Origin: Isoetes taiwanensis
Taxonomy: Eukaryota; Streptophyta; Lycopodiopsida; Isoetales; Isoetaceae
Reading direction: 5' to 3'
DNA length: 64,000 bases
Assembly: GCA_021234155.1 (NCBI GenBank)
Contig: JAJEKV010000054.1
Coordinates: 6,421,042 to 6,485,041 of the forward strand
Below, one piece after another: positions 6,544 to 64,000 of the stretch. The position numbers and the translations under genes are program-made. Every line of letters begins with the position of its first letter. The first letter of the stretch is position 1. Under the pieces are notes generated by a model, which saw nothing but the letters and a program-made list of their open reading frames with translations, was not told the DNA's origin and did no database searches.

Positions 6544-9384
6544 TGCACTTAGTCGGCAAGGTGAGGGAAGCACATCTGCAAAAGAAATGGATAGTCTACA
6601 GCGAAGTCACGACAATTACTCTAAACCATTGGCATTCTAAATCTTGGATCGACTCGGACTGCAAGGACCATGGAAGCACGAACTGGAAATTTAGTTTGAG
6701 CGCATGGTAGGAGATTACATTTCCACTTTTCGGGGAAAATCAAACACACTAGATGTCCAAGCACATGTCCTTGTCATCAATGAGCAAGAAGATTTGATCC
6801 CATTTATCTTCATGTTGTACCACCACAAAACCATGACGAGTACACGAATACATCGGACTTTACCATAAACGCTAACTCCATCAAGCTCCTAGATGTGAGA
6901 CGGGTGAAACAAAGAGGAGAAAGGGTAGCATCAAGAAAAGGGCAAAAGTCTACATTATTGAAAATGACGCGGCTAACAGGTCATACTTTGGCCAAGTACC
7001 CTGCAGAAAGACTTCCAAAAGCCATTGGAGGGATGGCCGTAAGAATGGGCGCGTCATGTCTGCCATGGCAAAAGAACTATGAGGTCCCAATATACTTGAC
7101 CATGACATAGAGAAATTTGTGATAGACGAGAGATGCAACACTCTCAAACGAGTTATTGGTATCCATTTCAGTGGCTTCTAAAAGTTTCCTTGCTACTCTG
7201 AAACGGTGGCCTCTTGGGATGTATCAACATATCGCGTTCGTTATGAAGAAGGTACATACGTAGGTAACAGAGTGAGAGCATGCTAGGGCGTTTTACTGTT
7301 TTTTGTATCTATTGGAAGCCAAAAAGGTACTCAAACACTGGGTAGTTTGAGGGCTTGAGAAGGTCTAATTAAACATGAACATTGAATGTGCATGAATCTT
7401 TCTTGTTTCTAACATCAATGTTTTGATTTTAAGTTGAATAGTAATGTGTTTTTGATTTGCATTTTCAATTTTTGAATTGACATGTGATGTAAAGAAGAGA
7501 AAAGTATTCAATTTGTTAAGTACTTACAAGATGTACTTTGAGAGGTGTCGAAAGTGGTATAATCTAACTTGCTCTTACCCAACACCACTCCTCAAAAGAA
7601 GTTACATGTCTATGGTGGAGGTAAGAAGGGAGGCTATAATCCTTTAAAAATTGAGTAGGAATTACCATCCTCAAAAAGGATAAAGAGACCACCACAAAGG
7701 TAGAAGATACTCTCACCTAATAACACAAAAACTAGTCTTCGTAAAGATGCACTTGACTCCCTCAACCGAAGTCAAGAATCGAGTTATGTCGCAAAAAGGA
7801 GCAAATGGACTGCTCGGTCGACTAGGCATTAACATATTTTTTAAAAGAGTAAAAGATAGCTAGGCATCTCCAAAGAAGTTTCCCCCTAGCATTGCTCTGA
7901 TACCAATGAGACACTTTCACATCATGTGAAGCCAAAGAGCATCTGGAACAATGATGAGTGCGCAACTATGATTTGGAAGTATGTATTAACACATTCCAAT
8001 TTAAGTTTTATCTTATTAATGTGGCAATTAATGTAAAGTTGTTACATATATAGGTGTATTTCTCAAATGGATCAGAGATCATAATGCCTACATATAAAGG
8101 TAAGATCATAAATGCCTACATATAAAGCTCCAAAAACAAGGGCTTGTGATCAAGGTTGTGAGCAAGGGTATTCACTATTCACATGTGCACCCCTATTCAC
8201 ACATGTGAACATGCACACATGTAAATACCCCTTGCTTGTATGGCATGCTTACGTGAAATGCTTAGGATCCCATTTCGGGCCAATCAGACTTGACCGAAGG
8301 ATCCCGTTTCGGGCGCTTGCAAATCAACTTGATCGAAGGATCCTGTGACCTGTCTCGGGAGCCAATAAAGTGCACGGTTAATATATGTGAACTTGGGACC
8401 ATAGCAGTCTAAAGGCAGGATAATCCAAAATTATAAGCTTCAATGTAGGTGAATGTATATAAACTCGAGACCATAGCAGTCTCAAGGTGGGCAATCATCC
8501 AAAACCGTAAGCAAGCTCCAATGTGGTTTATAGGTTCTTTGGTAGTGGTTTCCATAAGACACTGGTCCATCACGATGACGCCTTCTCAATTAAAGTAAAC
8601 AAGGTGCTTCAGAACTTTGGGCTGCCGTATGGAAGATTTCAACTCAAAACGCAAATTGGATGATATGCTCCGGTATGAGATTTCAACTATGAGATGAACA
8701 CTATTCTCTTTGATAAGTGAAATTTGATTCCAAGCTGTAAATAGTGCTATAATGAGGTATATTTATTTGGTCTTTAATCTTCTATCTCGCTTTTTATTGT
8801 AAGTAGGCATCAACAGTGACTTACTACTCTGGTTATTTATTTGCAGGACCATTATGAATTGGACAATATCAAGTAAAATTTGATTCTAAACTCTTACAGA
8901 TGGATGGCTGGATCCTCCGTGTGAATATGCACCCAAACCAAAGGGGGTTTCAAGGGGGATTTAATTTTAAAGTGTTGGATATAATGGTTTATGTGTTAAC
9001 CCAAAAAAATTTTGGCCCCTTCGGGGCCTTAAAAATTGACGAACGAACTAGAAAAAATTCGTAATATGGATCCAACCGTCAATGTAGTCCAAGACAAGAT
9101 AAAATATCATCCTTGTCATTGGAGCTGGGAGAATCTTAGAATCTCTTTAAAGACCTATTCGAAAATGCATCTGGCAAAAAGCCATAATAATTTATATTCA
9201 AACTCTAACCAGAACCACAAAACAGGCATCATACCATGCTTATAGCTCAAGGAACACTGGAACACTAGATTCTCGTTATTAGAATATACATTAAGAATAA
9301 TGAGTGGACGTATAGTTTATTGCCCCCTAGGATTTGAACCTAGGCATGGCCACCAAGAAAAAAGAAAATAACCTAACTGTATTT

Positions 9385-9770
9385 GTGGTGTCCATGTGAA
9401 GTCTGTAACCCTGGAAGTCTTGAATAACTCTGGAGCGAGGAACCTGCGCCTTCAATGGCGACGCTTACTGGCTGGTTTGCTACTGCACTCATCAGTAACA
9501 TCACTATAACCATCAATACTTACTACCTTGCCGTTATTACAGGGAGCTTCAGAACCTAGATAAGGATAGTCAGCCTCTGTATCTATGCCTTTATTTCTCA
9601 CCATGAACTGGAAAGCATTGTCCATGAGTCCACCTTGGCAGCTATTGTTCACCTCTGTGTCACCAGTCAACCAGTTCTTGATGCCATTGTTCAACCAGTT
9701 CTTGATGATGTCTTTATTTTATTGATGCCTTCTACTGCACCACCAGTAGCAGAGAATGCCCAACAGGCCC
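9385..9770 (-). pseudogene. Papain-family (C1A) cysteine protease, exon fragment
   Basis: Read on the minus strand, the fragment opens at an AG acceptor (intron side 9771 onward) with the active-site stretch GACWAFSATGG (catalytic Cys visible). After a frameshift it continues with NNSCQGGLMDNAFQF, GIDTEADYPYLGSEAPC and, in another frame, AVANQPVSVAIEG, in the order found in plant papain-like proteases. The region around the catalytic His and Asn is absent, and there is no signal peptide or propeptide. At least two frameshifts and the missing ends mean no active enzyme. It lies only in the segment unique to copy A. The family call is firm; subfamily is not resolved. Confidence 0.85.
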
Positions 9771-10829
9771 CTGAAGATAAGAGAAATGAAATGGAGCCTA
9801 TTACGATCTGTAAAAGTACTTAATTCATGTTGTACTTAGATCCTATCTGTGCTGCATTCCTCACATGCAAATGAATGCACTTACCAACTATATCTACCAT
9901 AACAAGTGGAGATCTTAACTTCACTACATTCCTTTCAACCAAGAGAGACCAGATGGTAGCCTTCTCATTTTTCTTCTATGTCAAACTTCGAGCTAAAATC
10001 ATCTCGTCTTCTTCTCAAGGGGGCCAGCTCTAGTTTGAATCCTTTTTTGGTAAAGCATAGAGTCTGTGCACACCATGATGGCTTCAATGGCCTCTTTTCC
10101 TCCTGCTATTGTTACTTTTCAAGATAGATGGTGTTCCTCATTGGCATTAACAGAAATCTGAGATTATGCCTAGGTCATAGGGCTAGTAAATATTCTGCAT
10201 CCCTGCATCATGCCATATTTCATTTCTCTTTAAAACAGGCCAACTCTATATTTATTTTCCATACATTTAGGCATCCAGCAAGAGGAGCCAGAAACATGGC
10301 AAAAGCTTTATCAATAGTCCAACCCACAGATCCAGACAAGGATGAAAGTGTGCGAGAATTTGGACTTGGGTCGCTAAGATCCGAATCGAAGTAGGTTCGG
10401 ATGCCACACTCTCGCAGGACTTACATGGTCCTTTAGAACTCCCTTGATTTGACGGACTGTTCAGACTTGAGTGGATATGCAAAAGCTAAAGGCGTTGGCT
10501 CGGAGCCCTGCTAAGCATTCCATACATTGAACTCCCCTGCCAAGAAAACACAGCCCCTTGTTTTAGATAAAAAAACACGACAAGAATCAGTCCCTAAAGA
10601 TGACAGAATCGCAAAAGGTGTGGATACCGCGAAAGTGAAACAAAGGGAATGTTTCGTCCAATTTGATGTCCTTGTTTTTGTACACGACAAAAGAGGGGAG
10701 ATTCAATCTTCTTCTTTATTCGAGACTTCAATTTCGTGCAAAATCAGAGCTTCGAAGGCCGAATATGTTGCACCATAACAACATCCCTCAATCTGTCTGC
10801 ACCTGCATACCTGAGACTGAGAGAGAGAA

Positions 10830-10935
10830 TGCTTCAGATAACCCTAAAATAACCCTAAAGTGAAACGAACGCTTCAGATAACCCTAAAATAATGCTTCAG
10901 ATAACCCTAAAAATAAAAATAAATAAAAATAAAAG
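10830..10935 (+). repeat. Short repeat with telomere-like CCCTAAA motifs
   Basis: A core of 'gcttcagataaccctaaaa' occurs at about 10831, 10871 and 10894. CCCTAAA, the complement of the plant telomere heptamer, occurs four times (10842, 10853, 10882, 10905) but not in register. An A-rich 'aaataaaaataaaaa' tail follows. The spacing argues against a true interstitial telomere tract. Confidence 0.7.
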
Positions 10936-13198
10936 GGGGTAAACCATTGATGATATGGAATTTAGACAATAAAATGTGGAGTGCACTCTAGATATACTAA
11001 TTAGTATGCCTCGTGCAATACGCCCATGAAATCATATGAAAACCATGCCAAAAAACGTATAAAATCACAAAACAAACCCCCTGTTATAATGCTACATATT
11101 CCAACAATACATTGGCAAAGTCAATAGCTAAAGATAATGCACTATTTTCTTTTGTTCATGATCGCAAATAGAGTCATAAAACAACATGCCATTATTTCAG
11201 TTGTCATTTGAGCTAGGGTTTATTCTTGAAGAGTCAACAGTTGTGTCTTGCATTACCTTTGTTTTTTTTGGCCATTTTGGTGATGAGTGTGTGGCAAAAG
11301 TGCAGAGGCCAAATGGTAGAGACACGGGAGAGATAACTAATGAGGTGCTTGATCACTTGGAGAGGTTAAATGCTTCCTTTGCATGCAATTTTACTTTGTG
11401 TAATTTCTTAGAATGGAGAGATTAAATGTAGACACAACGAAAATAATCGTAAAACTGGAGGGATAAATTATGTGGTGCTAGATCAAGTGGAGAGGTTTAA
11501 TGACGAAATTTCCTTTTGTGTACAACTTTAGTTCATGAGACTTTTTGAAAGTATATTATGATCCCAAACTACCAACAAGCAACCAAGCATAGTATAGGAA
11601 ACAACAACCTATTTTGTTAAGTGTGCTAACTTTCATCGTTTTTTTGCATTTGCTAACCACTTGCATTACTTTCTTGCCTTTGCTATTTTGTTTACCAAAG
11701 GTAATGGGAGAGGTTACATTGCACAGAGAGGCACAACCAAAAGTGCATTTCATAAAGGATAGGAGCTGGGGTCTTATATTGAAGGGCTACTTATTTATGT
11801 CCTACAACATCGCGCAGCAAGACATGACCCTCGAGATGTTTGGACAAGATTGTCCTTGATGTGAGTGCCCGAGTTTGATAAAATATAAACATCTTGATTT
11901 TGGATTTTGATGCTTGGGACAAATTATCCTTGATAGAGTGCCTAGAGTTTGACAAAACTCTATAGACATTTCAATTTTGGATTGCCCTCTACTCTAGTAA
12001 TAGAAACACCTTTTCTTTCTATGGGATATCACACGAGCTAAATTAGAACTGATGCATACTACTTAAGGGCTGATAAATAATGTAAATAAGACAATTTATG
12101 CATATCGCAGAAGGACAGGCACAACCAAAACTACTATGACAAAATTCGTAAAAGTCATAAAGGCTACTCCTTTACATACGAGGCCCATCTAAACCAGACC
12201 CCTAGTTATGCGCCACAATGCTATGCACATGTTTACTCGCGACATATGGAAGGGCAAACAAAAATGTAATATGAATGCCAACTCCATGTATCCCTTTTGC
12301 CATAGATTAAAGGGGACTATGCATCCATTATATGTGATTGAATTAAAATGAATTGAATTGGAAAAGGCCTAGAGGGCGAAAGTTTTTCCATCTTGCACGA
12401 CCTGTTTGCTAAATTGTTTGGAGTGCTGAAATAATTAAGTTTTCAAAATCTTTTCCCTTTTTTTCCAGATGATTTATGTTGCATTCTCCATCGGGGAACT
12501 CAGTGTGGGGAAACGAAGAAAAATGAACATATTTATAGCCTCCTCGTGGCGGGGGCATCTCCATTTTCGAGGAAAAGGCTCTATAGCTCAGATTAGCATT
12601 TTTCAAGACTCGTGATTTTTTTTATTTTATGTCAATGGTTATATTTTGTATTTTATAAGGCTCCATATTCAGATTTGAGAATGGTTATGTTTAATATTGT
12701 ATTGTATTGAATCACGGTTTTTAATTGAATTGACGCGAGCAAAGGTTTTTGCTTTTTAAAAATCTAATGGCCCTTGATGAGAAATATGAGATAAAATATT
12801 CCTAGGATAATGGGCTCCAAGGCAAAAATATCAAAGTCTAAAACAAATCATGTCTAAAAGATGCCCGGAAAAAAAATTGACACTCTAGGAGGTGAAAAGA
12901 AAGAAAAAAAGAGGAATTTTTATTTTTATTTTTGAGTAATCAAATCGTTTTCCTCTTTATGTTTTCCTCGTCTTTTTAGGGCATTTCGTTTTTCTTCTTA
13001 TTAGGGTTTTGGCTCTAGGTCTCGCAGACTATCGTGGCGGTATGCTCGAAGTTCCCTTGCCATGGCGGCTACTCCTCGGTGGCGCCTTTGTATTTTCATT
13101 GCATAGAATAGTTTTAAGGACTTTCTAATGCGATTCATCCGCATAGTATATGATCTTGCAGCCAAGCTTTGTGCATAATCCGATAATGGTGCATACAG

Positions 13199-14166
13199 TG
13201 TGCAACCGGTTTTGAAGAACAAACGGCACTACACCAAGTCAAAGATGGCAAAGACACCGAGAACATCAAGTCTATGAGCATTTCGAGCCACCAACCCCGA
13301 GAGGTCGCCACCAACAAAATCTCAAGCAGTTCAATCAGGTGCATTATGGACTTTCATTATGTTGCCTTAGTTTCTTAAATTATTCGTGAAGTAAGAGTAA
13401 GATTTTGCTGGTTTTGGTTCTGGATGAAGATGAGTGGGTAAATGTAAGGACTTGGGCCGTCGAGGTCACTCCCATGCGGCGCGGCGAGAATGCATAGTCG
13501 TGGATTCCCGGAGATACAGTTCTCTGTTTTGTGTATTTCAAGTTGCTAGACTCTTGCAAAGAATAATGCACTTTGTTGCAAATGAAAGATGACTTCTGTG
13601 AGGTTGACTAGTGGGTTCTCCGGTTCGGGAGGGTAATGAATGTGCTCTTTACTATGATGCCAAGATTCTTCAAGTTCGAGACATAGGCATGATATCCAAG
13701 GTTGCCGTTGTAAGTTTTGGGTTCGTTATGAGCATGATTTATCCGAGGTAATCTTTTGGAGAGTGTGCATGTTTGTTATGAACTTGGTCATCTAACATGA
13801 CAAGTCATCCAGAGATTGTACGTGAAGAAAGGTTTGTCGAGGCCGTAAACCGAAGTTTAGGCTAAAACAAATCCGCAGTTGAACAAACCTTTGGATGCTC
13901 GGGATATCACGATCTCTGGCGGTGAACCTCGAGCTTGCAACCTAATAGCAAATTAGCCATGGGACATCATCACCTTCGTTGGGCCTAATACGGTATGCTT
14001 TTGAATTCTCCCACTATGAATATTATTTGTTCTTATTGTGAGCAAGGCATTATGATATTGTATGTCATGCAACAAACCTCGGGCCTCGCTCTATATAAAA
14101 GTACGCGGTCTACAATGAATCCAATTGAAACGTATCCTTTAGAAAACACGGGGAATGGTAACATGA
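13199..14166 (+). pseudogene. SHH: SAWADEE-homeodomain (SHH1/SHH2-like) 3' fragment, copy A
   Basis: Same exon order as the cleaner copy at 53688-54656: homeodomain recognition helix (WFQNK type), SAWADEE second half beginning 'gaagtaagagtaag' at 13388, then the [12 protein letters not shown] exon, the EIVPLKKVCRRP exon and the C-terminal exon. Here the frames are broken at sites that read CAG or CTG in copy D: the acceptor before the EVRVRF exon reads 'attcgt' instead of 'attcag', and 'gtgtgc' has lost a base at the first exon. Family identity is secure by comparison with copy D. Whether the breaks are real or base-calling error is open. Confidence 0.8.
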
Positions 14167-14896
14167 CAAAAGTGAGTCCAAACTCAAATACAGGCATATA
14201 TTCATGACAAATTTGATGACGTTCAAGACTAATGCGTTTTAGATATAATTGGTGTGGGGCTATGAACAATGGGGAGATAGTCTAATGGCGCCACAACAAC
14301 GAAAGCGCCTGGCGCTTTTATCGGCACATCTTCATCGTCTTTGATCCTTGCTTTAGCACCCCAATTTAACTCATTTTAGAACAACAATATGGATCGGGTA
14401 TCAAAGGCTAGCATTTTACATGCTAAAATTCAGAATTAGTCGCATGAATTTCAATGCATATTAATGGTTTGCATGCGATTGGAAAATATGTGTTTTGGGG
14501 CTTTTCACGGATGCAATCATGAGATTTTGCGGCCTCGAAGGATGTCGATGCTATTATTAGTAAGGTAACCTATAGAACTAGCTATATTTCATAAGCGGTG
14601 ATTTTGCAAATTCATTGCTATTCTCGCTTCTAATTTTTTAGAGTATCATGAAAGGAACCATACAAACTGTGCATCAAATGTGCAAGTAAAAAAATTCTAG
14701 TCCGGTAATTTTGAAATATCTTTGAAATATCGGCTTTTCTTGTATTGAGACCATGATACCGGTTTACAAACCAACACACATTGCCATGTAGGCTATCTCA
14801 AGATGGTAGGAAATGGTCTTTTAACCCGGGCCTAGAGCAGTAGTTTAAAGGTTGTTTATGTTGTGTTAGAAGCCCAATGTTAATCATCCTTGTCGG

Positions 14897-15104
14897 GTTA
14901 TACAAACAAGGGAAGAAAGCAGGTTGAATTTGAAGTGGTTGGCTATGTGGTTGAAGAACTTCGGGAATAGTGGGCATTATGACAAGGTTTTGCAAGGATT
15001 TGGAAGATGCAAACATCTTCATTGGGTCTCTAATTGTTGTGAAGGAGTTGGCCACAAAGTTTACTAGATGCAAAAGACAGGTTGACAAGAACAACCTATC
15101 TTAG
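14897..15104 (+). pseudogene. CHLH: Mg-protoporphyrin IX chelatase subunit H fragment, copy A
   Basis: Matches the exon at 55388-55590, which is the better read. In this copy the acceptor reads 'tgtcgg' for 'tgtcag', and extra bases at 'aacttcggg' and 'gacaagg' break the frame. The nucleotide match to copy D is otherwise continuous to the 'ctatcttag' stop. It lies on the same strand as the SHH fragment and about 730 bp downstream. Confidence 0.75.
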
Positions 15105-18100
15105 CAAAGATGAGACTATACAATGCGAGATAGTGATTAGATAGACTTAGAGGTGATTCAATCTAAGTCGCAAGTGCAAGGTCGATTACTTCCTTAGATA
15201 CAAATTTGTTTGTTACTTATTTCGAAATAAATTTAATCATAGTTTATGAGTTTTGGAAATGGTTGGGGTTCAAATCCCCTTGCTCTTGAAAAGAGCAGAT
15301 ATAGTGACATAGTCGTAATAAATACTACTATATATACGAAACCATACACTACTATATATAAGAAACTACTATATATAAGAAACCATACACTACTATATAC
15401 AAGAAACCATACACAATCCGGTCTATTACACTTGAAATGCTTCAAACAAAACACTACTGGTTTATAAATGATAACCATTATTGTTTATGAATGATAACCA
15501 TGATTAGCTAATGCATAACAAAACCATGCACATTTAGAACAAACAATTACATCTAGGATTGATAGCAATAATAGTAATTTGCGTCTAATACAATGGGAAC
15601 CATGTGCATTTACCATGACATTAGCTTGCTAGTTTACCACAATAACCAACCACATTATAAAACTCATGAATAGAGCACTGTATTAAACCACATCCACAAC
15701 CGTCATGTTATACCACATGGACAAACCATACCTTTAAAACACTATAATTATACCACATCTATTTACCAACATGTAATACCACTTTGAAAAACTCTACATA
15801 GAAGCCATTTGCAATTACGTGCAATAATACCACCCTAATAAACCTTAGGAGAAACAACTTAGTTTAGCCACATATGGTTTTAATGAAATTAACCCCCAAA
15901 CACGCATTGGTTTTGTCGAGTGTTTTTCTAGTCATAACCATGGAAAAACCACGTAATCTTTTTTAATTTTGGGTGCCTTGTGATTTTTAGACCTTTTTGC
16001 GATTGAAGACCGGAGCATATTCGTGGAGTCGGGTTGGATCCTTATCGACACATCATTTGGAGCTTCCATATCGCATGGATCGCGACGGCTGCGAAATGAA
16101 GGTGTACAATTTGTATGCCCCAAAGACAATTCGCTTCGTGTGAGCCGAGCGTCCCGTATTCAACCCTCGTTTTTGAAATTTGCAACATGCATATGGAACT
16201 CGAAAAGTCCATTCTTCTACAATCCATGCTTTTTATACATTAAGCAAATTCAAATTTCGAATTGTAGGGGCAAGAAGCCCTGTATTGGGATGAAGTAAAG
16301 ATCCCGGTTAATGCTGGGTTCACATGGATGAACTGCAAGCTTTCGGCTTAAAACCTCAAACTTGGGCTTGAGGCAAAAAATTCATCAACCCGTTTTGGAA
16401 AAATCAGCCCTTGCAAGATCCAACTTGCATAGCCGATGCATTGGGCCTGAATTTTAATGATCTCGACTCGCCGGAGGACTCAAATGAGGAGGGCCTAAAC
16501 TTCTCCATGTGAACCACGATAAGGCGCACAAGCAGTGACCGAATGAAAATGAAAGTCGATACAAAGCTTCAACCTACACATTCAAATTTTTGAAATGTGG
16601 AAGGGGAAGCTTGTATGGCCATGGCCTCTAAATGAAAAAAATAAAGAACGGACACGCATGCGCTTGGTATCCGACAAATCAAGAGACACCGCCATGAGTT
16701 CTTTGGTATGCTATAATGCAATTGGCTTTTAGAAGTTTACATGTTGCATCAGCCTATCCGACAACCAACGTAATTAAATACATATGGCGTCATGAATGCT
16801 AATCCCCTTATTAGGAGAATATTCCAAGTAAATCAGAATGATGAGAGTTTGATATCCTAAGTGGCATGGGAAAAAAAGGAGGGAAATATGACGTGGAATG
16901 GCTGATAGGAGGCCATTTTGAGACCCCAACCGCGCCCTAATGTGCACTTAGTCGGCAAGGTGAGGGAAGCACATCCGCAAAAGAAATGGATAGTCTACAA
17001 TGAAGTCACGACAATTACTCTAAACCATTGGCATTCTAAATCTTGGATCGACTTCGATCGCAAGGACCATGGAAGCACGAATCGGAAATTTAGTTTGAGC
17101 GCATGGTAGGAGATTACATTTCCACTTTTCGGGAAAATCAAACACACTAGATGTCCAAGCACATGTCCTTGTCATCAATGAGCAAGAAGATTTGATCCCA
17201 TTTATCTTCATGTTGTACCACCACAAAACCATGACGAAAGTACACGAATACATCGGACTTTACCATAAACGCTTAACTCCATCAAGCTCCTAGATGTGAG
17301 ACGGTGAAACAAAGAGGAGAAAGGGTAGCATCAAGAAAAAGGGCAAAAGTCTACATTATTGAAAATGACGCCGGCTAACAGGTCATACTTTGGCCAAGTA
17401 CCTGCAGAAAGACTTCCAAAAGCCATTGGAGGGATGGCCGAAGAAAGAATGGCGCGTCATCTGCTATGGCAAAAGAACTATGAGGTCCCAATATACTTGA
17501 CCATGACATAGAGAAATTTGTGATAGACGAGAGATGCAACACTCTCAAACGAAGTTATTGGTATCCATTTCAGTGGCTTCTAAAAGTTTCCTTGCTACTC
17601 AAACGGTGGCCTCTTTGGGATGTATCAACATATCGCTGCTCGTTATGAAGAAGGTACATAATGTAGGTAACAGAGTGAGAGCATGCTAGGGCGTGCCTTT
17701 TTTTGTATCTATTGGAAGCCAAAAGGTACTCAAACACCGGTAGTTTGAGGGCTTGAGAAGGTCTAATTAAACATGAACATTGAATGTGCATGAATCTTTC
17801 TTGTTTCTAACATCAATGTTTTGATTTTAAGTTGAATAGTAATGTGTTTTTGATTTGCATTTTCAATTTTTGAATTGACATGTGATGTAAAGAAGAGAAA
17901 AGTATTCATTTGTTAAGTACTTACAAAGATGTACTTTGAGAGGTGTCGAAAGTGGTATAATCTAACTTGCTCTTACCCAACACCACTCCTCTAAAGAAGT
18001 TACATGTCTATGGTGGAGGTAAGAAGGAGGCTATAATCCTTTAAAAATTGAGTAGGAATTACCATCCTCAAAAGGATAAAGAGACCACCACAAAGGTAGA

Positions 18101-21100: not shown

Positions 21101-21443
21101 AAGATGCAAAAAAAAATTGACACTCTAGGAGGTGAAAAGAAAGAAAAAAAGAGGAATTTTTATTTTTATTTTTGAGTCTTGAAATCGTTTTCCTCTTTGC
21201 GTTTTCCCTCTGTCTTTTAGGGCATTTCGTTTTTCTTCTTATTAGGGTTTTGGCTCTAGGTCTCGCATGACCATCTAATGCGGTATGCTTTCGAGAAGTT
21301 CCCTTGCCATGGCGGCTACTCTCGGTGGAAGCCCTTTGTATTTTCATTGCATAGAATAGTTTTAAGGACTTTCTAATGCGATTCATCTGCATAGTATATG
21401 ATCTTGACCAAGCTTTGTGCATAATCGATAATGGTGCATACAG

Positions 21444-47975: not shown

Positions 47976-48019
47976 TAGTCCAGTTCTGTTAGATCCACGG
48001 GTCCTCGCTGCAGGGTCGT

Positions 48020-52300: not shown

Positions 52301-52525
52301 ACAAACCAAGCGGAAATCGCCCGGTAGGAGCTCAATTAGCGACGCCAACTACTACGCCCGCAGGCGAAGCCTTAAGGGTTTAATTTTTCTGCGTCAGCCT
52401 TAGTCACTATCTTTTGGGCGGTCGAGATCAAATTCTTTGTTACACCGAGGCACTTCTTTATTTGATCAACAAATCCGCCCATGGGCGCATTACTTTCGTT
52501 GGGTCCTCATACCGATTGCACCATT
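52301..52525 (+). pseudogene. RNase H start of the gypsy element, cut at the array junction
   Basis: Pieces of an EALRV...HYLLGGRD...ALLYLINKSAHGRITF pattern are visible in shifting frames, matching the gypsy RNase H segment that carries the 'REAL' and 'DH..L.YL' motifs. It ends at 52525, where the sequence passes into 'cgagctaaattag' of the 8.2 kb unit. Confidence 0.65.
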
Positions 52526-53449
52526 CGAGCTAAATTAGAACTGATGCATACTACTTAAGGGCTGATAAATAATGTAAATAAGACAATTTATGCATATCGC
52601 AGAAGGACAGGCACAACCAAAACTACTATGACAAAATTCGTAAAAGTCATAAAGGCTACTCCTTTACATACGAGGCCCATCTAAACCAGACCCCTAGTTA
52701 TGCGCCACAATGCTATGCACATGTTTACTCGCGACATATGGAAGGGCAAACAAAAATGTAATATGAATGCCAACTCCATGTATCCCTTTTGCCATAGATT
52801 AAAGGGGACTATGCATCCATTATATGTGATTGAATTAAAATGAATTGAATTGGAAAAGGCCTAGAGGGCGAAAGTTTTTCCATCTTGCACGACCTGTTTG
52901 CTAAATTGTTTGGAGTGCTGAAATAATTAAGTTTTCAAAATCTTTTCCTTTTTTTTCCAGATGATTTATGTTGCATTCTCCATCGGGAACTCAGTGTGGA
53001 GAAACGAAGAAAAATGAACATATTTATAGCCTCCTGTGGCAGGGCATCTCCATTTCTGGAGGAAAAGGCTCTATAGCTTTGTATTAGCATTTTTCAAGAC
53101 TCTGCATTTTTTTATTTTATGTCAATGGTTATATTTTGTATTTTATAAGGCTCCATATTCAGATTTGAGAATGGTTATGTTTAATATTGTATTGTATTGA
53201 ATCACGGTTTTGCGCAATTGACGCGAGCAAAGGTTTTTGCTTTTAAAAATCTAATGGCCCTTGATGAGAAATATGAGATAAAATATTCCTAGGATAACGG
53301 GCTCCAAGGCAAAAATATCAAAGTCTAAAACAAATCATGTCTAAAAGATGCCCGGAAAAAAAATTGACACTCTAGGAGGTGAAAAGAAAGAAAAAAAAGA
53401 GGAATTTTTATTTTTATTTTTGAGTACTGAAATCGTTTTCCTCTTTGCG

Positions 53450-53600
53450 TTTTCCTCTGTCTTTTAGGGCATTTCGTTTTTCTTCTTATTAGGGTTTTTG
53501 GCTCTAGGTCTCGCAGCTACTGTGCGGTATGCTCAGAAGTTCCCTTGCCATGGCGGCTACTCTCGGTGGGCGCCCTTTGTATTTTCATTGCATAGAATAG
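53450..53600 (+). promoter_or_regulatory. 5'-UTR-like leader with a candidate start codon upstream of SHH
   Basis: 'cttattagggtttttggctc' resembles the TAGGGTTT-bearing leaders of plant genes. It is followed by an ATG in good context (gccatggcg, 53550) opening MAATLGGRPLYFH before a stop at 53598. It could be the old first exon of the SHH gene or an unrelated leader joined to it. The link to the exon at 53688 is inference. Confidence 0.3.
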
Positions 53601-53687
53601 TTTTAAGGACTTTCTAATGCGATTCATCTGCATAGTATATGATCTTGCAGCCAAGCTTTGTGCATAATCTGATAATGGTGCATACAG

Positions 53688-54656
53688 GTGTGCAACTGGT
53701 TTCAGAACAAACGGCACTACCTGAAGTCAAAGATGGCAAAGACACCTGAGAACATCAAGTCTATGAGCATTTCTGGAGCCACCAACCCCGTAGGTCGGCC
53801 ACCAACAAAATCTTCTGCAGTTCAATCAGGTGCATTATGGACTTTCATTATGTTGCCTTAGTTTCTTAAATTATTCAGGAAGTAAGAGTAAGATTTGCTG
53901 GTTTTGGTTCGGATGAAGATGAGTGGGTAAATGTAAGGACTTCAGTTCGTCAGAGGTCACTCCCATGCGAAGCAGCAGAATGCATAGCTGTGATTCCTGG
54001 AGATACAGTTCTCTGTTTTCAGGTATTTCAAGTTGCTAGACTCTTGCAAAGAATAATGCACTTTGTTGCAAATGAAAGATGACTTACAGGTTGACTAGTG
54101 GGTTCTCTGGTTCAGGAGGGTAATGAACAGGCTCTTTACTATGATGCCAAGATTCTTCAAGTTCAGAGACATAGGCATGATATCCAAGGTTGCCGTTGTA
54201 AGTTTTGGGTTCGTTATGAGCATGATTTATCTGAGGTAATCTTTTGGAGAGTGTGCATGTTTGTTATGAACTTGGTCATCTAACATGACAAGTCATCCAG
54301 GAGATTGTACCGCTGAAGAAGGTTTGTCGCAGGCCAGAAACTGAGTTTAGGCTAAAACAGTCACGGTTGAACAAACCTTTGGATGCTCAGATATCACGAT
54401 CTCCTGGCGGTGAACCTCAGAGCTTGCAACCTAATAGCAAATTAGCTACTGGGACATCATCACCTTCGTTGGGCCTAATACAGGTATGCTTTTGAATTCT
54501 CCCACTATGAATATTATTTGTTCTTATTGTGAGCAAGGCATTATGATATTGTATGTCATGCAACAGCCTTCAGTCTCGTCTATATACAGTGCACAGTCTA
54601 CAATGAATCCAATTGAAACGTATCCTTTAGAAAACATAGGGGGAATGGTAACATGA
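53688..54656 (+). pseudogene. SHH: SAWADEE-homeodomain (SHH1/SHH2-like) 3' fragment, copy D (best copy)
   Basis: Five exon blocks with GT-AG borders: 53688-53829, 53879-54022, 54116-54235, 54301-54483, 54567-54656 (stop TGA). Exon 1 encodes homeodomain helix 3 (VCNWFQNKRHYLKSK). Exon 2 is the middle of the SAWADEE domain ([10 protein letters not shown]...[26 protein letters not shown]). Exon 3 is [19 protein letters not shown], then [17 protein letters not shown] with the His/Cys residues of the zinc site. Exon 4 starts EIVPLKKVCRRPE. SHH proteins bind H3K9-methylated, H3K4-unmethylated histone tails and recruit Pol IV. About 225 codons are open, against roughly 260 for Arabidopsis SHH1. Homeodomain helices 1-2 and the first SAWADEE segment are missing. 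Exons 1 and 2 are only 49 bp apart and out of phase, so this is a fragment. Confidence 0.88.
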
Positions 54657-55387
54657 CAGCGTGAGTCCAGCTCAAGTACAGGCATATATTCATGACAAAT
54701 TTGATGACGTTCAAGACTAATGCGTTTTAGATATAATTGGTGTGGGGCTATGAACAATGGGGAGATAGTCTAATGGCGCCACAACAACGAGCAGCCTGCG
54801 CTTTTACTGGCACATCTTCATCGTCTTTGATCCTTGCTTTAGCACCCCAATTTAACTCATTTTAGAACAACAATATGGATCGGGTATCAAAGGCTAGCAT
54901 TTTACATGCTAAAATTCAGAATTAGCTGCATGAATTTCAATGCATATTAATGGTTTGCATGCGATTGGAAAATATGCAGGTTTTGGGGCTTTTCACGGAT
55001 GCAATCATGAGATTTGCGGCCTCAGAAGGATGTCGATGCTATTATTAGTAAGGTAACCTATAGAACTAGCTATATTTCATAAGCAGGTGATTTTGCAAAT
55101 TCATTGCTATTCTGCTTCTAATTTTTTTAGAGTATCATGAAAGGAACCATACAATCTGTGCATCAAATGTGCAAGTAAAAAATTCTAGTCTGGTAATTTT
55201 GAAATATCTTTGAAATATCTGGCTTTTCTTGTATTGAGACCATGATACCAGTTTACAAACCAACACACATTGCCATGTAGGCTATCTCGGCAGTGGTAGG
55301 AAATGGTCTTTTTAACCCAGGCCTAGAGCAGTAGTTTAAAGGTTGTTTATGTTGTGTTAGAAGCCCAATGTTAATCATCCTTGTCAG

Positions 55388-55590
55388 GTTATACAAACAA
55401 GGGAAGAAAGCAGGTTGAATTTGAAGTGGTTGGCTATGTGGTTGAAGAACTCAGGAATAGTGGGCATTATGACAGGTTTTGCAAGGATTTGGAAGATGCA
55501 AACATCTTCATTGGGTCTCTAATTGTTGTGAAGGAGTTGGCCACAAAGTTTACTAGATGCAGCACAGTTGACAAGAACAACCTATCTTAG
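55388..55590 (+). pseudogene. CHLH: Mg-protoporphyrin IX chelatase subunit H fragment, copy D (best copy)
   Basis: After a CAG acceptor the frame reads [28 protein letters not shown] and KELATK, diagnostic of the N-terminal region of the large chelatase subunit, which binds protoporphyrin IX in chloroplasts. Homology stops after about 55 residues; the frame then runs [14 protein letters not shown] to a stop. The remaining 1,300 or so residues of the protein are not found in the unit, so it is an exon-sized fragment. It lies on the SHH strand, 730 bp past the SHH stop. Confidence 0.85.
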
Positions 55591-57580
55591 CAGCATGAGA
55601 CTATACAATGCAGATAGTGATTAGATAGACTTAGAGGTGATTCAATCTAAGCTGCAAGTGCAAGGTCAGTACTTCCTTAGATACAAATTTGTTTGTTACT
55701 TATTTCGGAATAAATTTAATCATAGTTTATGAGTTTTGGAAATGGTTGGGGTTCAAATCCCCTTGCTCTTGAAAAGAGCAGATATAGTGACATAGTCGTA
55801 ATAAATACTACTATATATACGAAACCATACACTACTATATATAAGAAACTACTATATATAAGAAACCATACACTACTATATACAAGAAACCATACACAAT
55901 CCGGTCTATTACACTTGAAATGCTTCAAACAAAACACTACTGGTTTATAAATGATAACCATTATTGTTTATGAATGATAACCATGATTAGCTAATGCATA
56001 ACAAAACCATGCACATTTAGAACAAACAATTACATCTAGGATTGATAGCAATAATAGTAATTTGCGTCTAATACAATGGGAACCATGTGCATTTACCATG
56101 ACATTAGCTTGCTAGTTTACCACAATAACCAACCACATTATAAAACTCATGAATAGAGCACTGTATTAAACCACATCCACAACCGTCATGTTATACCACA
56201 TGGACAAACCATACCTTTAAAACACTATAATTATACCACATCTATTTACCAACATGTAATACCACTTTGAAAAACTCTACATAGAAGCCATTTGCAATTA
56301 CCGTGCAATAATACCACCCTAATAAACCTTACAGGAGAAACAACTTAGTTTAGCCACATATGGTTTTTAATGAAATTAACCCCCAAACACGCATTGGTTT
56401 TGTCGAGTGTTTTTCTAGTCATAACCATGGGAAAAACCACGTAGTCTTTTAATTTTGGGTGCCTTGTGATTTTTTAGACCTTTTTTGCGATTGAAGACTG
56501 GAGCATATTCGTGAGTCAGTTGGATCCTTATCGACACATCATTTGGAGCTTCCATACTGCATGGATCGACGGCTGTGAAATGAAGGTGTACAATTTGTAT
56601 GCCCCAAAGACAATTCGCCGTGTGGTGAGCCGAGCGTCATTACTAACCTCGTTTTTGAAATTTGCAACATGCATATGGAACTCGAAAAGTCCATTTTCTA
56701 CAATCCATGCTTTTATACATTAAGCAAATTCAAATTTCGAATTGTAGGGGGCAAGAAGCCCCGTATTGGGATGAAGTAAAGATCCGGTTAATCGCCGGGT
56801 TCACATGGACGAACGGGCTAATCGGGCTTAAAACCGGCTGAACTGGGCCGAGGCAAAAATTCATCAACCCTTTTTTGGAAAATCAGCCCTTGCAAGATCC
56901 AACTTGCATAGCTGATGCTGGCCGGAATTTTTAATCGAAGGTCGACTCCGCCGTAACTCACGGAGGGCCTAAACTTCTCCATGTGAACCACGATAGCGAA
57001 CTTGGCAGCCCTCGAAATGAAAGTCTGATACAAAGCTTCAACCTACACATTCAAATTTTGAAATGTGGAAGGCGGGAAGCTTGTATGGCCATGGCCTCTA
57101 AATGAAAATAGCGCAAGAATCGGTGACACGCACGCTTGGTATCTGACAAATCAAGAGACACCGTCATGAGTTGCCGGTATGCTATAATGCAATTGGCTTT
57201 TTAGAAGCGCCACATGTTGCATCAGCCTATCTGACAACCAACAGAATTAAATACATATGGCGTCATGAATGCGCAATCCCCCTTATTCCGGGAGAATATT
57301 CCAAGTAAATCTGTAATGATGAGAGTTTGATATCCTAAGTGGCATGGGAAAAAAGGAGGGGAAATATGACGTGGAATGGCTGATAGGAGGCCATTTTGAG
57401 ACCCCAAATCCGCCCTAATGTGCACTTAGTCGGCAAGGTGAGGGAAGCACATCTGCAAAAGAAATGGATAGTCTACAGCGAAGTCACGACAATTACTCTA
57501 AACCATTGGCATTCTAAATCTTGGATCGATTCGGACTGCAAGGACCATGGAAGCACGAACTGGAAATTTAGTTTGAGCGC

Positions 57581-57745
57581 ATGGTAGGAGATTACATTTC
57601 CACTTTTCGGGGAAAATCAAACACACTAGATGTCCAAGCACATGTCCTTGTCATCAATGAGCAAGAAGATTTGATCCCATTTATCTTCATGTTGTACCAC
57701 CACAAAACCATGACGAGTACACGAATACATCGGACTTTACCATAA
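57581..57745 (+). other. Unrecognised 54-codon open frame near the unit start
   Basis: ATG to TAA, beginning MVGDYISTFRGKS and running through HVLVINEQEDLIPF. It is also present at 6704 (A), about 17103 (B) and 25330 (C). A second coding-like segment in another frame follows (KVYIIENDAANRSYFGQV, near 57823-57877). Together they look like pieces of one protein or of adjacent exons. I do not recognise the family, and persistence across copies is expected for any sequence in the array. Confidence 0.25.
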
Positions 57746-59901
57746 ACGCTAACTCCATCAAGCTCCTAGATGTGAGACGGGTGAAACAAAGAGGAGAAAG
57801 GGTAGCATCAAGAAAAGGGCAAAAGTCTACATTATTGAAAATGACGCGGCTAACAGGTCATACTTTGGCCAAGTACCCTGCAGAAAGACTTCCAAAAGCC
57901 ATTGGAGGGATGGCCGTAAGAATGGGCGCATCATGTCTGCCATGGCAAAAGAACTCCTATGAGGTCCCAATATACTTGACCATGACATAGAGAAATTTGT
58001 GATAGACGAGGGTGAAGATGCAACACTCTCAAACGAGTTATTTGTATCCATTTCAGTGGCTTCTAAAAGTTTCCTTGCTACTCTGAAACGGTGGCCTCTT
58101 GGGATGTATCAACATATCGCGTTCGTTATGAAGAAGGTACATACGTAGGTAATAGAGTGAGAGCATGCTAGGGCGTGCCTGTTTTTGTATCTATTGGAAG
58201 CCAAAAAAGGTACTCAAACACTGGGTAGTTTGAGGGCTTGAGAAGGTCTAATTAAACATGAACATTGAATGTGCATGAATCTTTCTTGTTTCTAACATCA
58301 ATGTTTTGATTTTAAGTTGAATAGTAATGTGTTTTTGATTTGCATTTTCAATTTTTGAATTGACATGTGATGTAAAGAAGAGAAAAGTATTCAGCTGTTA
58401 AGTACTTACAGTATGTACTTTGAGAGGTGTCGAAAGTGGTATAATCTAACTTGCTCTTACCCAACACCACTCCTCTAAAGAAGTTACATGTCTATGGTGG
58501 AGGTAAGAAGGGAGGCTATAATCCTTTAAAAATTGAGTAGGAATTACCATCCTCAAAAAGGATAAAGAGACCACCACAAAGGTAGAAGATACTCTCACCT
58601 AATAACACAAAAACTAGTCTTCGTAAAGATGCACTTGACTCCCTCAACCGAGTCAAGAATCAGAGTTATGTGCGCAAAAGGAGCAAATGGACTGCTCCGT
58701 CAGCTAGGCATTAACATATTTTTTAAAAGAGTAAAAGATAGCTAGGCATCTCCAAAGAAGTTTCCCCCTAGCATTGCTCTGATACCAATGAGACACTTTC
58801 ACATCATGTGAAGCCAAAGAGCATCTGGAACAATGATGAGTGCGCAACTATGATTTGGAAGTATGTATTAACACATTCCAATTTAAGTTTTATCTTATTA
58901 ATGTGGCAATTAATGTAAAGTTGTTACATATATAGGTGTATTTCTCAAATGGATCAGAGATCATAATGCCTACATATAAAGGTAAGATCATAAATGCCTA
59001 CATATAAAGCTCCAAAAACAAGGGCTTGTGATCAAGGTTGTGAGCAAGGGTATTCACTATTCACATGTGCACCCCTATTCACACATGTGAACATGCACAC
59101 ATGTAAATACCCCTTGCTTGTATGGCATGCTTACGTGAAATGCTTAGGATCCCATTTCGGGCCAATCAGACTTGACCGAAGGATCCTGCCCGGGCGCTTT
59201 GCAAATCAACTTGATCGGAAGGATCCGTGGACTGTCCCGGGAGCCAATAAAGTGCACGGTTAATATATGTGAACTTGGGACCATAGCAGTCTAAAGGCAG
59301 GATAATCCAAAATTATAAGCTTCAATGTAGGTGAATGTATATAAACTCGAGACCATAGCAGTCTCAAGGTGGGCAATCATCCAAAACCGTAAGCAAGCTC
59401 CAATGTGGTTTATAGGTTCTTTGGTAGTGGTTTCCATAAGACACTGGTCCATCACGATGACGCCTTCTCAATTAAAGTAAACAAGGTGCTTCAGAACTTT
59501 GGGCTGCCGTATGGAAGATTTCAACTCAAAACGCAAATTGGATGATATGCTCCGGTATGAGATTTCAACTATGAGATGAACACTATTCTCTTTGATAAGT
59601 GAAATTTGATTCCAAGCTGTAAATAGTGCTATAATGAGGTATATTTATTTGGTCTTTAATCTTCTATCTCGCTTTTTATTGTAAGTAGGCATCAACAGTG
59701 ACTTACTACTCTGGTTATTTATTTGCAGGACCATTATGAATTGGACAATATCAAGTAAAATTTGATTCTAAACTCTTACAGATGGATGGCTGGATGAATA
59801 GACAGACTAGCCTATTCCAACAATACATTGGCAAAGTCAATAGCTAAAGATAATGCACTATTTTCTTTTGTTCATTATCGCAAATAGAGTCATAAAACAA
59901 C

Positions 59902-60141
59902 ATGCCATTATTTCAGTTGTCATTTGAGCTAGGGTTTATTCTTGAAGAGTCAACAGTTGTGTCTTGCATTACCTTTGTTTTTTTTGGCCATTTTGGTGAT
60001 GAGTGTGTGGCAAAAGTGCAGAGGCCAAATGGTAGAGACACGGGAGAGATAACTAATGAGGTGCTTGATCACTTGGAGAGGTTAAATGCTTCCTTTGCAT
60101 GCAATTTTACTTTGTGTAATTTCTTAGAATGGAGAGATTAA
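59902..60141 (+). other. 79-codon open frame conserved in copies A, B and E, unidentified
   Basis: The translation is identical at 11186-11425, 19435-19674 and 59902-60141 (starts MPLFQLSFELGFILEESTV; contains HFGDECVAKVQRPNGRD). No domain is recognised. The identity reflects the low divergence of the array here and is not evidence of selection. A diverged partial repeat of its 3' half follows at once ('gtgctagatcaagtggagagg'). Confidence 0.25.
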
Positions 60142-61908
60142 ATGTAGACACAACGAAAATAATCGTAAAACTGGAGGGATAAATTATGTGGTGCTAGATC
60201 AAGTGGAGAGGTTTAATGACGAAATTTCCTTTTGTGTACAACTTTAGTTCATGAGACTTTTTGAAAGTATATTATGATCCCAAACTACCAACAAGCAACC
60301 AAGCATAGTATAGGAAACAACAACCTATTTTGTTAAGTGTGCTAACTTTCATCGTTTTTTTGCATTTGCTAACCACTTGCATTACTTTCTTGCCTTTGCT
60401 ATTTTGTTTACCAAAGGTAATGGGAGAGGTTACATTGCACAGAGAGGCACAACCAAAAGTGCATTTCATAAAGGATAGGAGCTCAGTCTTATATTGAAGG
60501 GCTACTTATTTATGTCCTACAACATCGCGCACATGACCCTGAGATGTTTGGACAAGATTGTCCTTGATGTGAGTGCCCAGAGTTTGATAAAATATAAACA
60601 TCTTGATTTTGGATTTTGATGCTTGGGACAAATTATCCTTGATAGAGTGCCTAGAGTTTGACAAAACTCTATAGACATTTCAATTTTGGATTGCCCTCTA
60701 CTCTAGTAATAGAAACACCTTTTCTTTCTATGGGATATCACACGAGCTAAATTAGAACTGATGCATACTACTTAAGGGCTGATAAATAATGTAAATAAGA
60801 CAATTTATGCATATCGCAGAAGGACAGGCACAACCAAAACTACTATGACAAAATTCGTAAAAGTCATAAAGGCTACTCCTTTACATACGAGGCCCATCTA
60901 AACCAGACCCCTAGTTATGCGCCACAATGCTATGCACATGTTTACTCGCGACATATGGAAGGGCAAACAAAAATGTAATATGAATGCCAACTCCATGTAT
61001 CCCTTTTGCCATAGATTAAAGGGGACTATGCATCCATTATATGTGATTGAATTAAAATGAATTGAATTGGAAAAGGCCTAGAGGGCGAAAGTTTTTCCAT
61101 CTTGCACGACCTGTTTGCTAAATTGTTTGGAGTGCTGAAATAATTAAGTTTTCAAAATCTTTTCCCTTTTTTTCCAGATGATTTATGTTGCATTCTCCAT
61201 CGGGAACTCAGTGTGGAGAAACGAAGAAAAATGAACATATTTATAGCCTCCTGTGGCAGGGCATCTCCATTTCTGGAGGAAAAGGCTCTATAGCTCTGTA
61301 TTAGCATTTTTCAAGACTCTGCATTTTTTTATTTTATGTCAATGGTTATATTTTGTATTTTATAAGGCTCCATATTCAGATTTGAGAATGGTTATGTTTA
61401 ATATTGTATTGTATTGAATCACGGTTTTGCTAATTGACGCGAGCAAAGATTTTTGCTTTTAAAAATCTAATGGCCCTTGATGAGAAATATGAGATAAAAT
61501 ATTCCTAGGATAACGGGCTCCAAGGCAAAAATATCAAAGTCTAAAACAAATCATGTCTAAAAGATGCCGGAAAAAATTGACACTCTAGGAGGTGAAAAGA
61601 AAAAAAAAAAAGAGGAATTTTTATTTTTATTTTTGAGTAATCGAAATCGCTTTTCCTCTTTGCGTTTTCCTCTGTCTTTTAGGGCATTTCGTTTTTTTCT
61701 TCTTCATTAGGGTTTTTGGCTCTAGGTCTCGCAGCTCATGTGCGGCGGTATGCTCAGAAGTTCCCTTGCCATGGCGGCTACTCTCGGTGGGCGCCCTTTG
61801 TATTTTCATTGCATAGAATAGTTTTAAGGACTTTCTAATGCGATTCATCCGCATAGTATATGATCTTGCAGCCAAGCTTTGTGCATAATCCGATAATGGT
61901 GCATACAG

Positions 61909-62864
61909 TGTGCAACCGGTTTCGTAGAACAAACGGCACTACTCAAGTCAAAGATGGCAAAGACACCGAGAACATCAAGTCTATGAGCATTTCGAGCCAC
62001 CAACCCCGAGGGTCGGCCACCAACAAAATCTTCTGCAGTTCAATCAGGTGCATTATGGACTTTCATTATGTTGCCTTAGTTTCTTAAATTATTCAGAAGT
62101 AAGAGTAAGATTTGCTGGTTTTGGTTCGGATGAAGATGAGTGGGTAAATGTAAGGACTTCCGCCTCGCCGAGGTCACTCCCATGCTAAGCAAAGAGAATG
62201 CATAGTTTGTGATTCCCGAGAGATTCTGCTTTGTGTATTTCAAGTTGCTAGACTCTTGCAAAGAATAATGCACTTTGTTGCAAATGAAAGATGACTTACT
62301 GTGTTGACTAGTGGGTTCTCTCGTTCAGAGGGTAATGAATGTGCTCTTTACTATGATGCCAAGATTCTTCAAGTTCGAGACATAGGCATGATATCCAAGG
62401 TTGCCGTTGTAAGTTTTGGGTTCGTTATGAGCATGATTTATCCGAGGTAATCTTTTGGAGAGTGTGCATGTTTGTTATGAACTTGGTCATCTAACATGAC
62501 AAGTCATCCAGAGATTGTACCGTGAAGAAGGTTTGTCGCAGCCGTAAACCGAAGTTTAGGCTAAAAAAGTCCACGGTTGAACAAACCTTTGATGCTCGGG
62601 ATATCACGATCTCCCCGGAGGTGAACCCGTGAGCTTGCAACCTAATAGCAAATTAGCTATGGGACATCATCACCTTCGTTGGGCCTAATATGTGTATGCT
62701 TTTGAATTCTCCCACTATGAATATTATTTGTTCTTATTGTGAGCAAGGCATTATGATATTGTATGTCATGCAACAGACCTTGCCTCGCCTATATACAAAG
62801 GTACGCCTACAATGAATCCAATTGAAACGTATCCTTTAGAAAACATAGGGGAATGGTAACATGA
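61909..62864 (+). pseudogene. SHH: SAWADEE-homeodomain (SHH1/SHH2-like) 3' fragment, copy E
   Basis: Same five blocks as copy D, with small changes at its CAG/CTG sites: 'catacagtgtg' for 'catacaggtgtg', 'ttcagagggtaatgaatgtg' for 'ttcaggagggtaatgaacagg', and 'aaaccgaag' for 'aaactgag'. It ends in a shortened frame at the C-terminus (four instead of five G at 'atagggg'). The first homeodomain helices and the first SAWADEE segment are missing, as elsewhere. Confidence 0.8.
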
Positions 62865-63602
62865 CAAAAGTGAGTCCAAATTTCAAAAGCAGTGCATATA
62901 TTCATGACAAATTTGATGACGCTCAAGACTAATGCGCTTTTTAGATATAATTGGTGTGGGGCTATGAACAATGGGGAGATAGTCTAATGGCGCCACAACA
63001 ACGAAAGCCCAAGGCTTTTATCGGGGCACATCTTCATCGTCTTTGATCCTTGCTTTAGCACCCCAATTTAACTCATTTTAGAACAACAATATGGATCGGG
63101 TATCAAAGGCTAGCATTTTACATGCTAAAATTCGTAAATTAGTCGCATGAATTTCAATGCATATTAATGGTTTGCATGCGATTGGAAAATATGCGTGTTT
63201 TGGGGCTTTTCACGGATTCAATCATGAGATTTGCGGCCTCGGAAGGATGTCGATGCTATTATTAGTAAGGTAACCTATAGAACTAGCTATATTTCATAAG
63301 GTGTGATTTTGCAAATTCATTGCTATTCTCGCTTCTAATTTTTTAGAGTATCATGAAAGGAACCATACAACAGGCATCAAATGTGCAAGTAAAAAATTCT
63401 AGTCCGGTAATTTTGAAATATCTTTGAAATATCTGGCTTTTCTTGTATTGAGACCATGATACCGGTTTACAAACCAACACACATTGCCATGTAGGCTATC
63501 TCAAGCAATGGTAGGAAATGGTCTTTTAACCCGTGCCTAGAGCAAGAGTTTAAAGGTTGTTTATGTTGTGTTAGAAGCCCAATGTTAATCATCCTTGTCA
63601 AA

Positions 63603-63808
63603 GTTATACAAACAAGGGAAGAAAGCAGGTTGAATTTGAAGTGGTTGGCTATGTGGTTGAAGAACTCGTGAATAGTGGGCATTATGACAGTGTTTTGCAA
63701 GGATTTGGAAGATGCAAACATCTTCATTGGGTCTCTAATTGTTGTGAAGGAGTTGGCCACAAAGTTTACTAGATGCAAAGACAGCTTGACAAGAACAACC
63801 TATCTTAG
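63603..63808 (+). pseudogene. CHLH: Mg-protoporphyrin IX chelatase subunit H fragment, copy E
   Basis: Nucleotide match to the copy-D exon from 'gttatacaaac' to 'ctatcttag'. The acceptor reads 'gtcaaa' in place of 'gtcag', and 'gacagtgttttgc' replaces 'gacaggttttgc', which closes the frame after the EELR segment. Confidence 0.75.
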
Positions 63809-64000
63809 CAAAGATGAGACTATACAATGCAGATAGTGATTAGATAGACTTAGAGGTGATTCAATCTAAGCCGCAAGTGCAAGGTCAAGACTTCCTTAGA
63901 TACAAATTTGTTTGTTACTTATTTCGAATAAATTTAATCATAGTTTATGAGTTTTGGAAATGGTTGGGGTTCAAATCCCTTGCTCTTGAAAAGAGCAGAT

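Follow-up and report, generated by a model that had tools for sequence, protein, structure and literature searches.

How did pieces of two unrelated genes, SHH and CHLH, come to be repeated head to tail in the genome of Isoetes taiwanensis? We analyzed a stretch of 64,000 nucleotides in which both occur several times (contig JAJEKV010000054.1, C1061:6421042-6485041; hereafter the window), inspected the sequence to 60 kb past it, with positions above 64000 carrying on the window numbering, and searched the genome of 1.66 Gb in 1110 contigs. An earlier note on this DNA had proposed a transposon-like or segmental unit that carries fragments of unrelated genes and was amplified in tandem, and both halves of this proposal proved right, as the remnant of a Pack-CACTA-like transposon lies inside a tandem segmental duplication. 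Most probably, a non-autonomous transposon of this type captured a piece of CHLH and later one of SHH; after the loss of its 5' end it was multiplied as a passive part of the tandem segmental duplication.

Results and Discussion

To the eye of a self-comparison the window consists largely of direct repeats, which appeared at offsets of about 8.2, 10.4, 18.6, 32.2, 40.5, 48.7 and 50.9 kb. Apart from simple sequence, no 24-mer has a second occurrence on the opposite strand inside the window, and all copies have a single orientation, as had been claimed before. The unit of 8.2 kb is composed of a segment D of 2.14 kb and a segment E of 6.1 kb, which are ordered D-E-D-E-D between 6544 and 27232 (Table 1). 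D starts at 6544, 16943, 25173, 57421 and 65630, E follows D1, D2 and D4, and a partial copy, E3, lies upstream of D4. The first unit (U1) reaches 10.4 kb from an insert of 2.2 kb at 8914-11096. The unit border at 16943/25173 is exact and was found again at 6544 and 57421, and the CHLH landmarks at 14897, 23141, 55388 and 63603 are homologous, with four same-strand matches of 96–100% identity. With five D and four E copies (one E being partial) and 25 kb between them the locus is not a satellite-type array of many contiguous units. The head-to-tail 8.2-kb array that the earlier note had drawn from 6544 to 64000 is therefore real in the assembly as a repeat but not as a continuous one: 27233-52525 (25.3 kb) is not array, and what follows from 52526 on is not simply a run of further 8.2-kb units but a second copy of the whole block 12034-52508. 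An insertion of the 25-kb stretch into unit 3 was considered and rejected, as D3 (to 27232) and D5 (to about 67735) continue directly into one and the same flanking sequence; because the same sequence follows D5, we regard 27233-52525 as the right flank of D-E-D-E-D. D itself is matched nearly in full length five times, always at this locus (with 40 of 232 candidates scored); parts of it, at unit 733-1037 (71–79% identity) and over shorter stretches, look like diverged repeats from other places.

Large parts of E are present at five loci on other contigs (L003, L005, L006, L007 and L008), which were found with a query containing the CHLH piece. These relatives end at unit 7288-7290, where their flanks diverge. 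The four relatives that have both ends (L003, L006, L007 and L008) begin with CACAAGGCACCC... and finish with ...GGGTGCCTTGTG, inverted ends that match exactly over 16–18 bp; their total lengths are 9644, 5966, 5786 and 4984 bp, and all four are framed by a perfect target duplication of 3 bp (TAT, TCA, ATA, TCA). In L005 the 3' end is present and the 5' end was not found in the 9.7 kb inspected. A genome-wide count of the exact 22-base 3' terminus gave 316 occurrences, compared to none of the reversed control. All four array copies keep a 3' end, at 15982, 24230, 56468 and 64686, and a search of 130 kb with up to two errors allowed revealed no 5' end in any of them. Since four 3' ends remain and the 5' end was not found, independent movement of the array copies is not to be expected. 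In E, a Pack-CACTA-like transposon truncated at its 5' side is followed by the end of a high-copy element. Short inverted ends starting with CAC and the 3-bp target duplication are features of CACTA (EnSpm) elements, for which a duplication of this length is given in the accessible text of PMC8978399, and host gene pieces with identifiable donors (SHH on C1032, CHLH on C1071) are a feature of Pack-TYPE elements. As the tips read CACAA, we named the element CACTA-like and not CACTA. The longest frame in the four bounded elements has 197 amino acids (in L007, among frames of at least 90 amino acids), and one frame of L003, the one frame of the bounded elements that was scanned against families, gave no match.

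The last 0.94 kb of E belong to the 3' end of this other, high-copy element (40 matches from 40 scored of 1388 candidates), whose stop base is identical in five of the six dispersed copies fetched and lies two bases later in the sixth. A copy read at both ends (L016 2835-6881) has inverted ends of about 60 bp (CATTAGGGCGGATTTGG...), and no target duplication was visible in this single copy. By eye, the sequence on both sides of it looks like portions of a Ty3-type retroelement. The unit border was also considered as an end-to-start junction of the transposon and this was rejected, since the end of the high-copy element lies on one side and D on the other. This bears on a rolling-circle (Helitron) origin of the captured pieces as well as of the head-to-tail array. 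Helitrons, which have CTRR ends and make no target duplication, can pick up parts of genes together with their introns and may be arranged in tandem, but the inverted ends and 3-bp duplications in four of four two-ended relatives led us to reject this model, and neither the nature of the unit border nor the full-length presence of D at this locus only fits to it; we regard it as extremely improbable. The array was not made by movement of the transposon, as no 5' end was found in it and the repeat includes the 2.1-kb segment D, which is full-length only here.

Both captured genes could be traced to their donors, and the two matches on which the earlier note was built are genuine. For CHLH the donor is a gene of its own on C1071, which has a long open frame. 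Its piece is present in five of five relatives and in all four array copies with 75–81% identity to the donor including non-coding sequence, and one frame of E3, containing a single stop, resembles the donor for about 70 residues. SHH proteins are readers of the RNA-directed DNA methylation (RdDM) pathway and recruit Pol IV to silenced DNA. The SHH donor is a separate locus on C1032 with two SAWADEE exons above the Pfam cut-off, one of which matched solved SHH1 SAWADEE structures, and SAWADEE is above the cut-off also in the window (53858-54226). A second SHH-like SAWADEE locus of the genome is found at C951:574732-575073 (G000). The donor stretch of 1308 bp includes introns and is carried in sense, with about 270 bp of it missing in L003 and the array copies and about 145 bp in L005. 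It is present in L003, L005, L008 and the four array copies, that is in three of the five relatives; no match was found in L006 and L007, which have 82–88 bp of other sequence at that place. According to our reading of the alignment, the capture borders share about 3 bp and about 1 bp with the donor. Identity to the donor is highest in L005 (99.8% over 551 bp and 94.0% over 617), followed by E3 (98.8% and 96.3%) and L003 (97.5% and 95.9%), and amounts to 90.3% in L008 and, as assembled, to 87.7–92.0% in E1, E2 and E4. The 99.8%-identical stretch of L005 (6841-7391) lies beside the 94.0% one, a patchiness that could result from gene conversion, re-capture or uneven consensus quality. Because L006 and L007 possess CHLH together with the unreplaced 82–88 bp, and because CHLH is less identical to its donor, we infer from the compared sequences that capture was probably stepwise, with CHLH preceding SHH.

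As assembled, the D copies differ by 2.1–5.0% and the E copies from unit 3337 on by 4.3–7.2% with many indels, the two copies of the 40.5-kb block are 89.5% identical and some variants are common to several copies, which would fit to an old tandem duplication whose copies are truly as diverged as they appear. We consider such an old array very unlikely, as the form of the differences, multi-base and CG-centred, is unlike the ordinary mutation seen in controls. After exclusion of difference clusters spanning at least 60 columns, the six E pairs showed 107–144 clusters each, 39–51% of them with at least three differing columns and 10–20% being single substitutions, and in the ten D pairs (17–70 clusters each) these values were 27–53% and 10–32%. 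In contrast, three control comparisons of dispersed relatives gave 11–21% and 61–82%, respectively. A CG was located at 63–71% of the clusters in E (18–24% expected) and at 47–68% in D (15–21% expected), but also at 24–29% in the controls (10–12% expected), and it is the multi-base, indel-rich form that is distinctive of the array differences, CG enrichment being common to both. Also against an old array, E3 is 98–99% identical to L003 from another contig over the SHH half of the compared stretch, whereas E1, E2 and E4 show 90–93% (96% in one window of E4); toward the 3' end of this stretch all four E copies show 97–99%. Moreover, unit 2142-3336 differs by only 0.6–1.4% between copies, and the frames of a GLDH-like gene in the right flank, read by eye, break at differing places in its two copies. 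Judged from this pattern, most of the assembled divergence looks like consensus error at CG, probably methylated, which could not be polished since the copies are near-identical. Dating of the array by divergence was dropped after this error test, as much of the apparent copy difference of 2–10% is CG-centred, consensus-error-like and unsuitable for it.

The same question arises for the 40.5-kb block. Its second copy (52526 to about 93244) might be the other haplotype, placed in tandem by the assembler, in which case each chromosome would carry one D-E-D-E-D and no 40.5-kb duplication, and to this we give an even chance. Both halves show the same D-E-D layout followed by the right flank, and the junction partners of the duplication are without evident homology. 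Over the initial 3.9 kb of aligned right flank, with the GLDH-like gene, the comparison of the two copies yielded only 22 difference clusters with 6 single substitutions, a level expected of alleles. The GLDH-like gene is present twice, in the window and at L001 4194-7470, and these are the sole two near-identical copies of its exon 1 that were found, the other matches being 47–83% identical and containing stops. On the other hand, no run of N was found in the 124 kb inspected around the block, and a very recent true duplication would predict identical data. Because the difference level of the right flank fits alleles and a very recent duplication alike, we take a true, recent duplication and an assembly or haplotype artefact to be about equally likely, and part of the assembled copy number may be an artefact of the assembly.

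From these observations the following history can be proposed. An element with CACAAGGCACCC ends would first have taken up the CHLH piece, and in a sub-lineage some 82–88 bp would have given way to SHH genomic DNA of about 1.3 kb, with 1–3 bp shared at the borders, as in gap-repair filling. One transposon copy would have been located in the high-copy element that borders D on its left, and break repair might have joined the right end of one D to the transposon interior with a templated-looking filler, giving L-D-E-D-R (L and R being the left and right flank). Unequal exchange between the two D copies would then lead to D-E-D-E-D, and this block would have been duplicated again over 40.5 kb, truly and recently or in the assembly alone. 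The filler at the D-E junction contains AGATTTCAACT, which is also present about 45 bp upstream in D, and the filler of D1 and D4 contains TATGAGAT, also present just downstream, a pattern which resembles templated end joining and may well derive from it. As D begins exactly where the high-copy element ends, the L-D1 border looks like an empty site and the E-D border like a filled one; an exchange between empty and filled copies of the locus may have made L-D-E-D-R, with D-D homology then allowing the second E. Clean substitutions, flanked by five conserved columns on each side, are few, with 11 in 2217 D columns and 14 in 5037 E columns. At three of the D sites D3 and D5 differ from D1, D2 and D4, which would be expected if the 8.2-kb unit had been copied before the 40.5-kb block.

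Several points weigh against this history or parts of it. The CACAA tips lack the exact CACTA motif, no Transposase_21 gene could be linked to CACAAGGCACCC ends, with Transposase_21 being abundant in the genome (167 matches when 150 of 2311 candidates were scored), and in the accessible text of PMC8903248 target duplications of 5 nt are given for an annotated set of rice and maize CACTA elements. Finding CHLH in all five relatives is partly built in, as the search query contained CHLH and the DNA search did not seek relatives with SHH only. The allele with the transposon between L and D that the break-repair step assumes was not seen, and a one-time capture followed by deletion could yield the same picture as this step. 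At two clean D sites D3, D4 and D5 stand together against D1 and D2, and at one clean E site E2 and E3 against E1 and E4, which does not fit a simple pairing or history. Finally, the copy number rests on one assembly.

Besides the array, the locus contains several further features (Table 1). The insert in E1 carries a fragment of a papain-like cysteine protease (Peptidase_C1; 9455-9718, minus strand). No inverted repeat at its ends appeared in the self-comparison, and it is perhaps another captured-gene insertion or repair filler. In the GLDH-like gene Pfam recognized FAD_binding_4, with an ALO match staying under its cut-off; from its frames we take it to be GLDH, presumably acting in vitamin C synthesis. 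By eye, these frames are broken at different points in each copy, probably by consensus errors, and an annotation based on this assembly may be wrong there. Positions 766-1712 of the left-flank query gave partial matches elsewhere with 67–90% identity and represent a diverged repeat inside it. Ten frames taken from D and from both flanks had no match in Pfam, and the same was true for five of eight further frames, including two that had been read by eye as Ty3-type.

Table 1: Features of the window and its surroundings (positions in window numbering; identities as assembled).
Feature	Position	Strand	Remark
Left flank	1-6543		tested part 4500-6543: full-length match at this locus only, among 40 scored of 917 candidates
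D1	6544-8675	+	first copy of the 2.1-kb segment
E1	8686-15982	+	5'-truncated Pack-CACTA-like element; 3' end 15982; split by the insert 8914-11096
Insert in E1	8914-11096		not present in E2 and E4; site lies outside E3; replaces about 20 bp of unit
SHH fragment in E1	13185-14234	+	sense; 88% to donor
CHLH fragment in E1	14307-15063	+	sense
High-copy element, 3' end	15983-16942	+	terminates ...CCCTAATG
D2	16943-19083	+	
Junction filler between D and truncated transposon	19084-19097		pieces repeat nearby sequence
E2	19098-24230	+	5'-truncated Pack-CACTA-like element; 3' inverted end 24230
SHH fragment in E2	21430-22481	+	
CHLH fragment in E2	22559-23310	+	
High-copy element, 3' end	24231-25172	+	
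D3	25173-27232	+	adjoins unrelated right flank
GLDH-like gene	27689-30962	-	exons in pieces; within the 40.5-kb block
40.5-kb block	12034-52508	+	second copy 52526 to about 93244, beyond the window
Junction of 40.5-kb duplication	52509-52525		Ty3-type retroelement sequence (by eye) meets transposon interior (unit 3337)
E3	52526-56468	+	Pack-CACTA-like part; least noisy copy in the compared stretch
SHH fragment in E3	53674-54722	+	SAWADEE matches 53858-54028 and 54089-54226
CHLH fragment in E3	54793-55552	+	
High-copy element, 3' end	56469-57420	+	
D4	57421-59557	+	
E4	59568-64000	+	Pack-CACTA-like part; 3' end 64686, beyond the window
SHH fragment in E4	61895-62934		
CHLH fragment in E4	63025-63768		

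The SHH-bearing elements including the array might also give rise to small RNAs that turn SHH down and so feed back on silencing itself, an idea that had been put forward earlier for the array. Sequence matching of the required kind exists: 205, 197, 716 and 219 21-mer positions of E1, E2, E3 and E4, respectively, and 860 of L005 have a match on one or the other strand of the 7-kb donor locus, and 225 of the 371 distinct 21-mers of the donor SAWADEE region are unchanged in E3. Furthermore, captured gene pieces are described as sources of siRNAs against their donors in maize in the accessible part of a review (PMC13317346), which argues as well that silencing of essential donors is selected against. 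The fragment is moreover absent from two of the five relatives. We judge such a feedback to be very unlikely, and it would not depend on the array, the fragment being present in three dispersed copies as well. Slightly less likely still is a wider scenario in which the transposon family would have spread the chromatin-reading part of SHH and its siRNAs, raised by the tandem duplication, would lower SHH and thereby weaken the silencing of the family itself, as a self-limiting loop or as a trick of 'epigenetic conflict'. Evidence for a function of the array was not seen in its sequence. With SHH captured, the idea that captured genes give rise to siRNAs can be put to a direct test on a silencing factor.

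Comparison with known systems

Gene capture by a Pack-CACTA-like element and tandem copying are a known kind of event, and the capture of an RdDM reader is the one unusual point. Within our partial coverage of the literature on Pack-CACTA and Pack-MULE capture and on SHH and SAWADEE, no title on a transposon capture of SHH was found. The locus is a well-preserved case, in which dispersed copies allow successive captures, of CHLH and then of SHH, to be read, and in which the gene captured later is part of the transposon-silencing pathway.

As far as the accessible texts go, the element resembles the Pack-CACTA and Pack-TYPE elements (PMC8903248; Catoni et al. 2019 via the review PMC13317346) in being non-autonomous and ended by inverted repeats, in carrying several host gene pieces and in having dispersed copies. 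It differs from Pack-CACTA in its tip, which is CACAA and not CACTA, and in that a 5'-truncated copy was multiplied as a passenger of a segmental duplication. In the reviewed model for Pack-CACTA, as accessible, neighbouring insertions are fused, whereas the SHH step here would replace 82–88 bp internally. With the CACTA elements from Chenopodium (PMC8978399, in its accessible part) it shares the 3-bp target duplication and the captured host gene fragments, but those had been chosen for a putatively functional first open frame, while the copies described here are without a recognised transposase. The siRNA conflict with donor genes in maize, as outlined in the accessible part of PMC13317346, is alike in that a host gene fragment borne by a transposon can match its donor. 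In contrast to maize, the case described here is known from sequence alone, and its donor is itself an RdDM factor.

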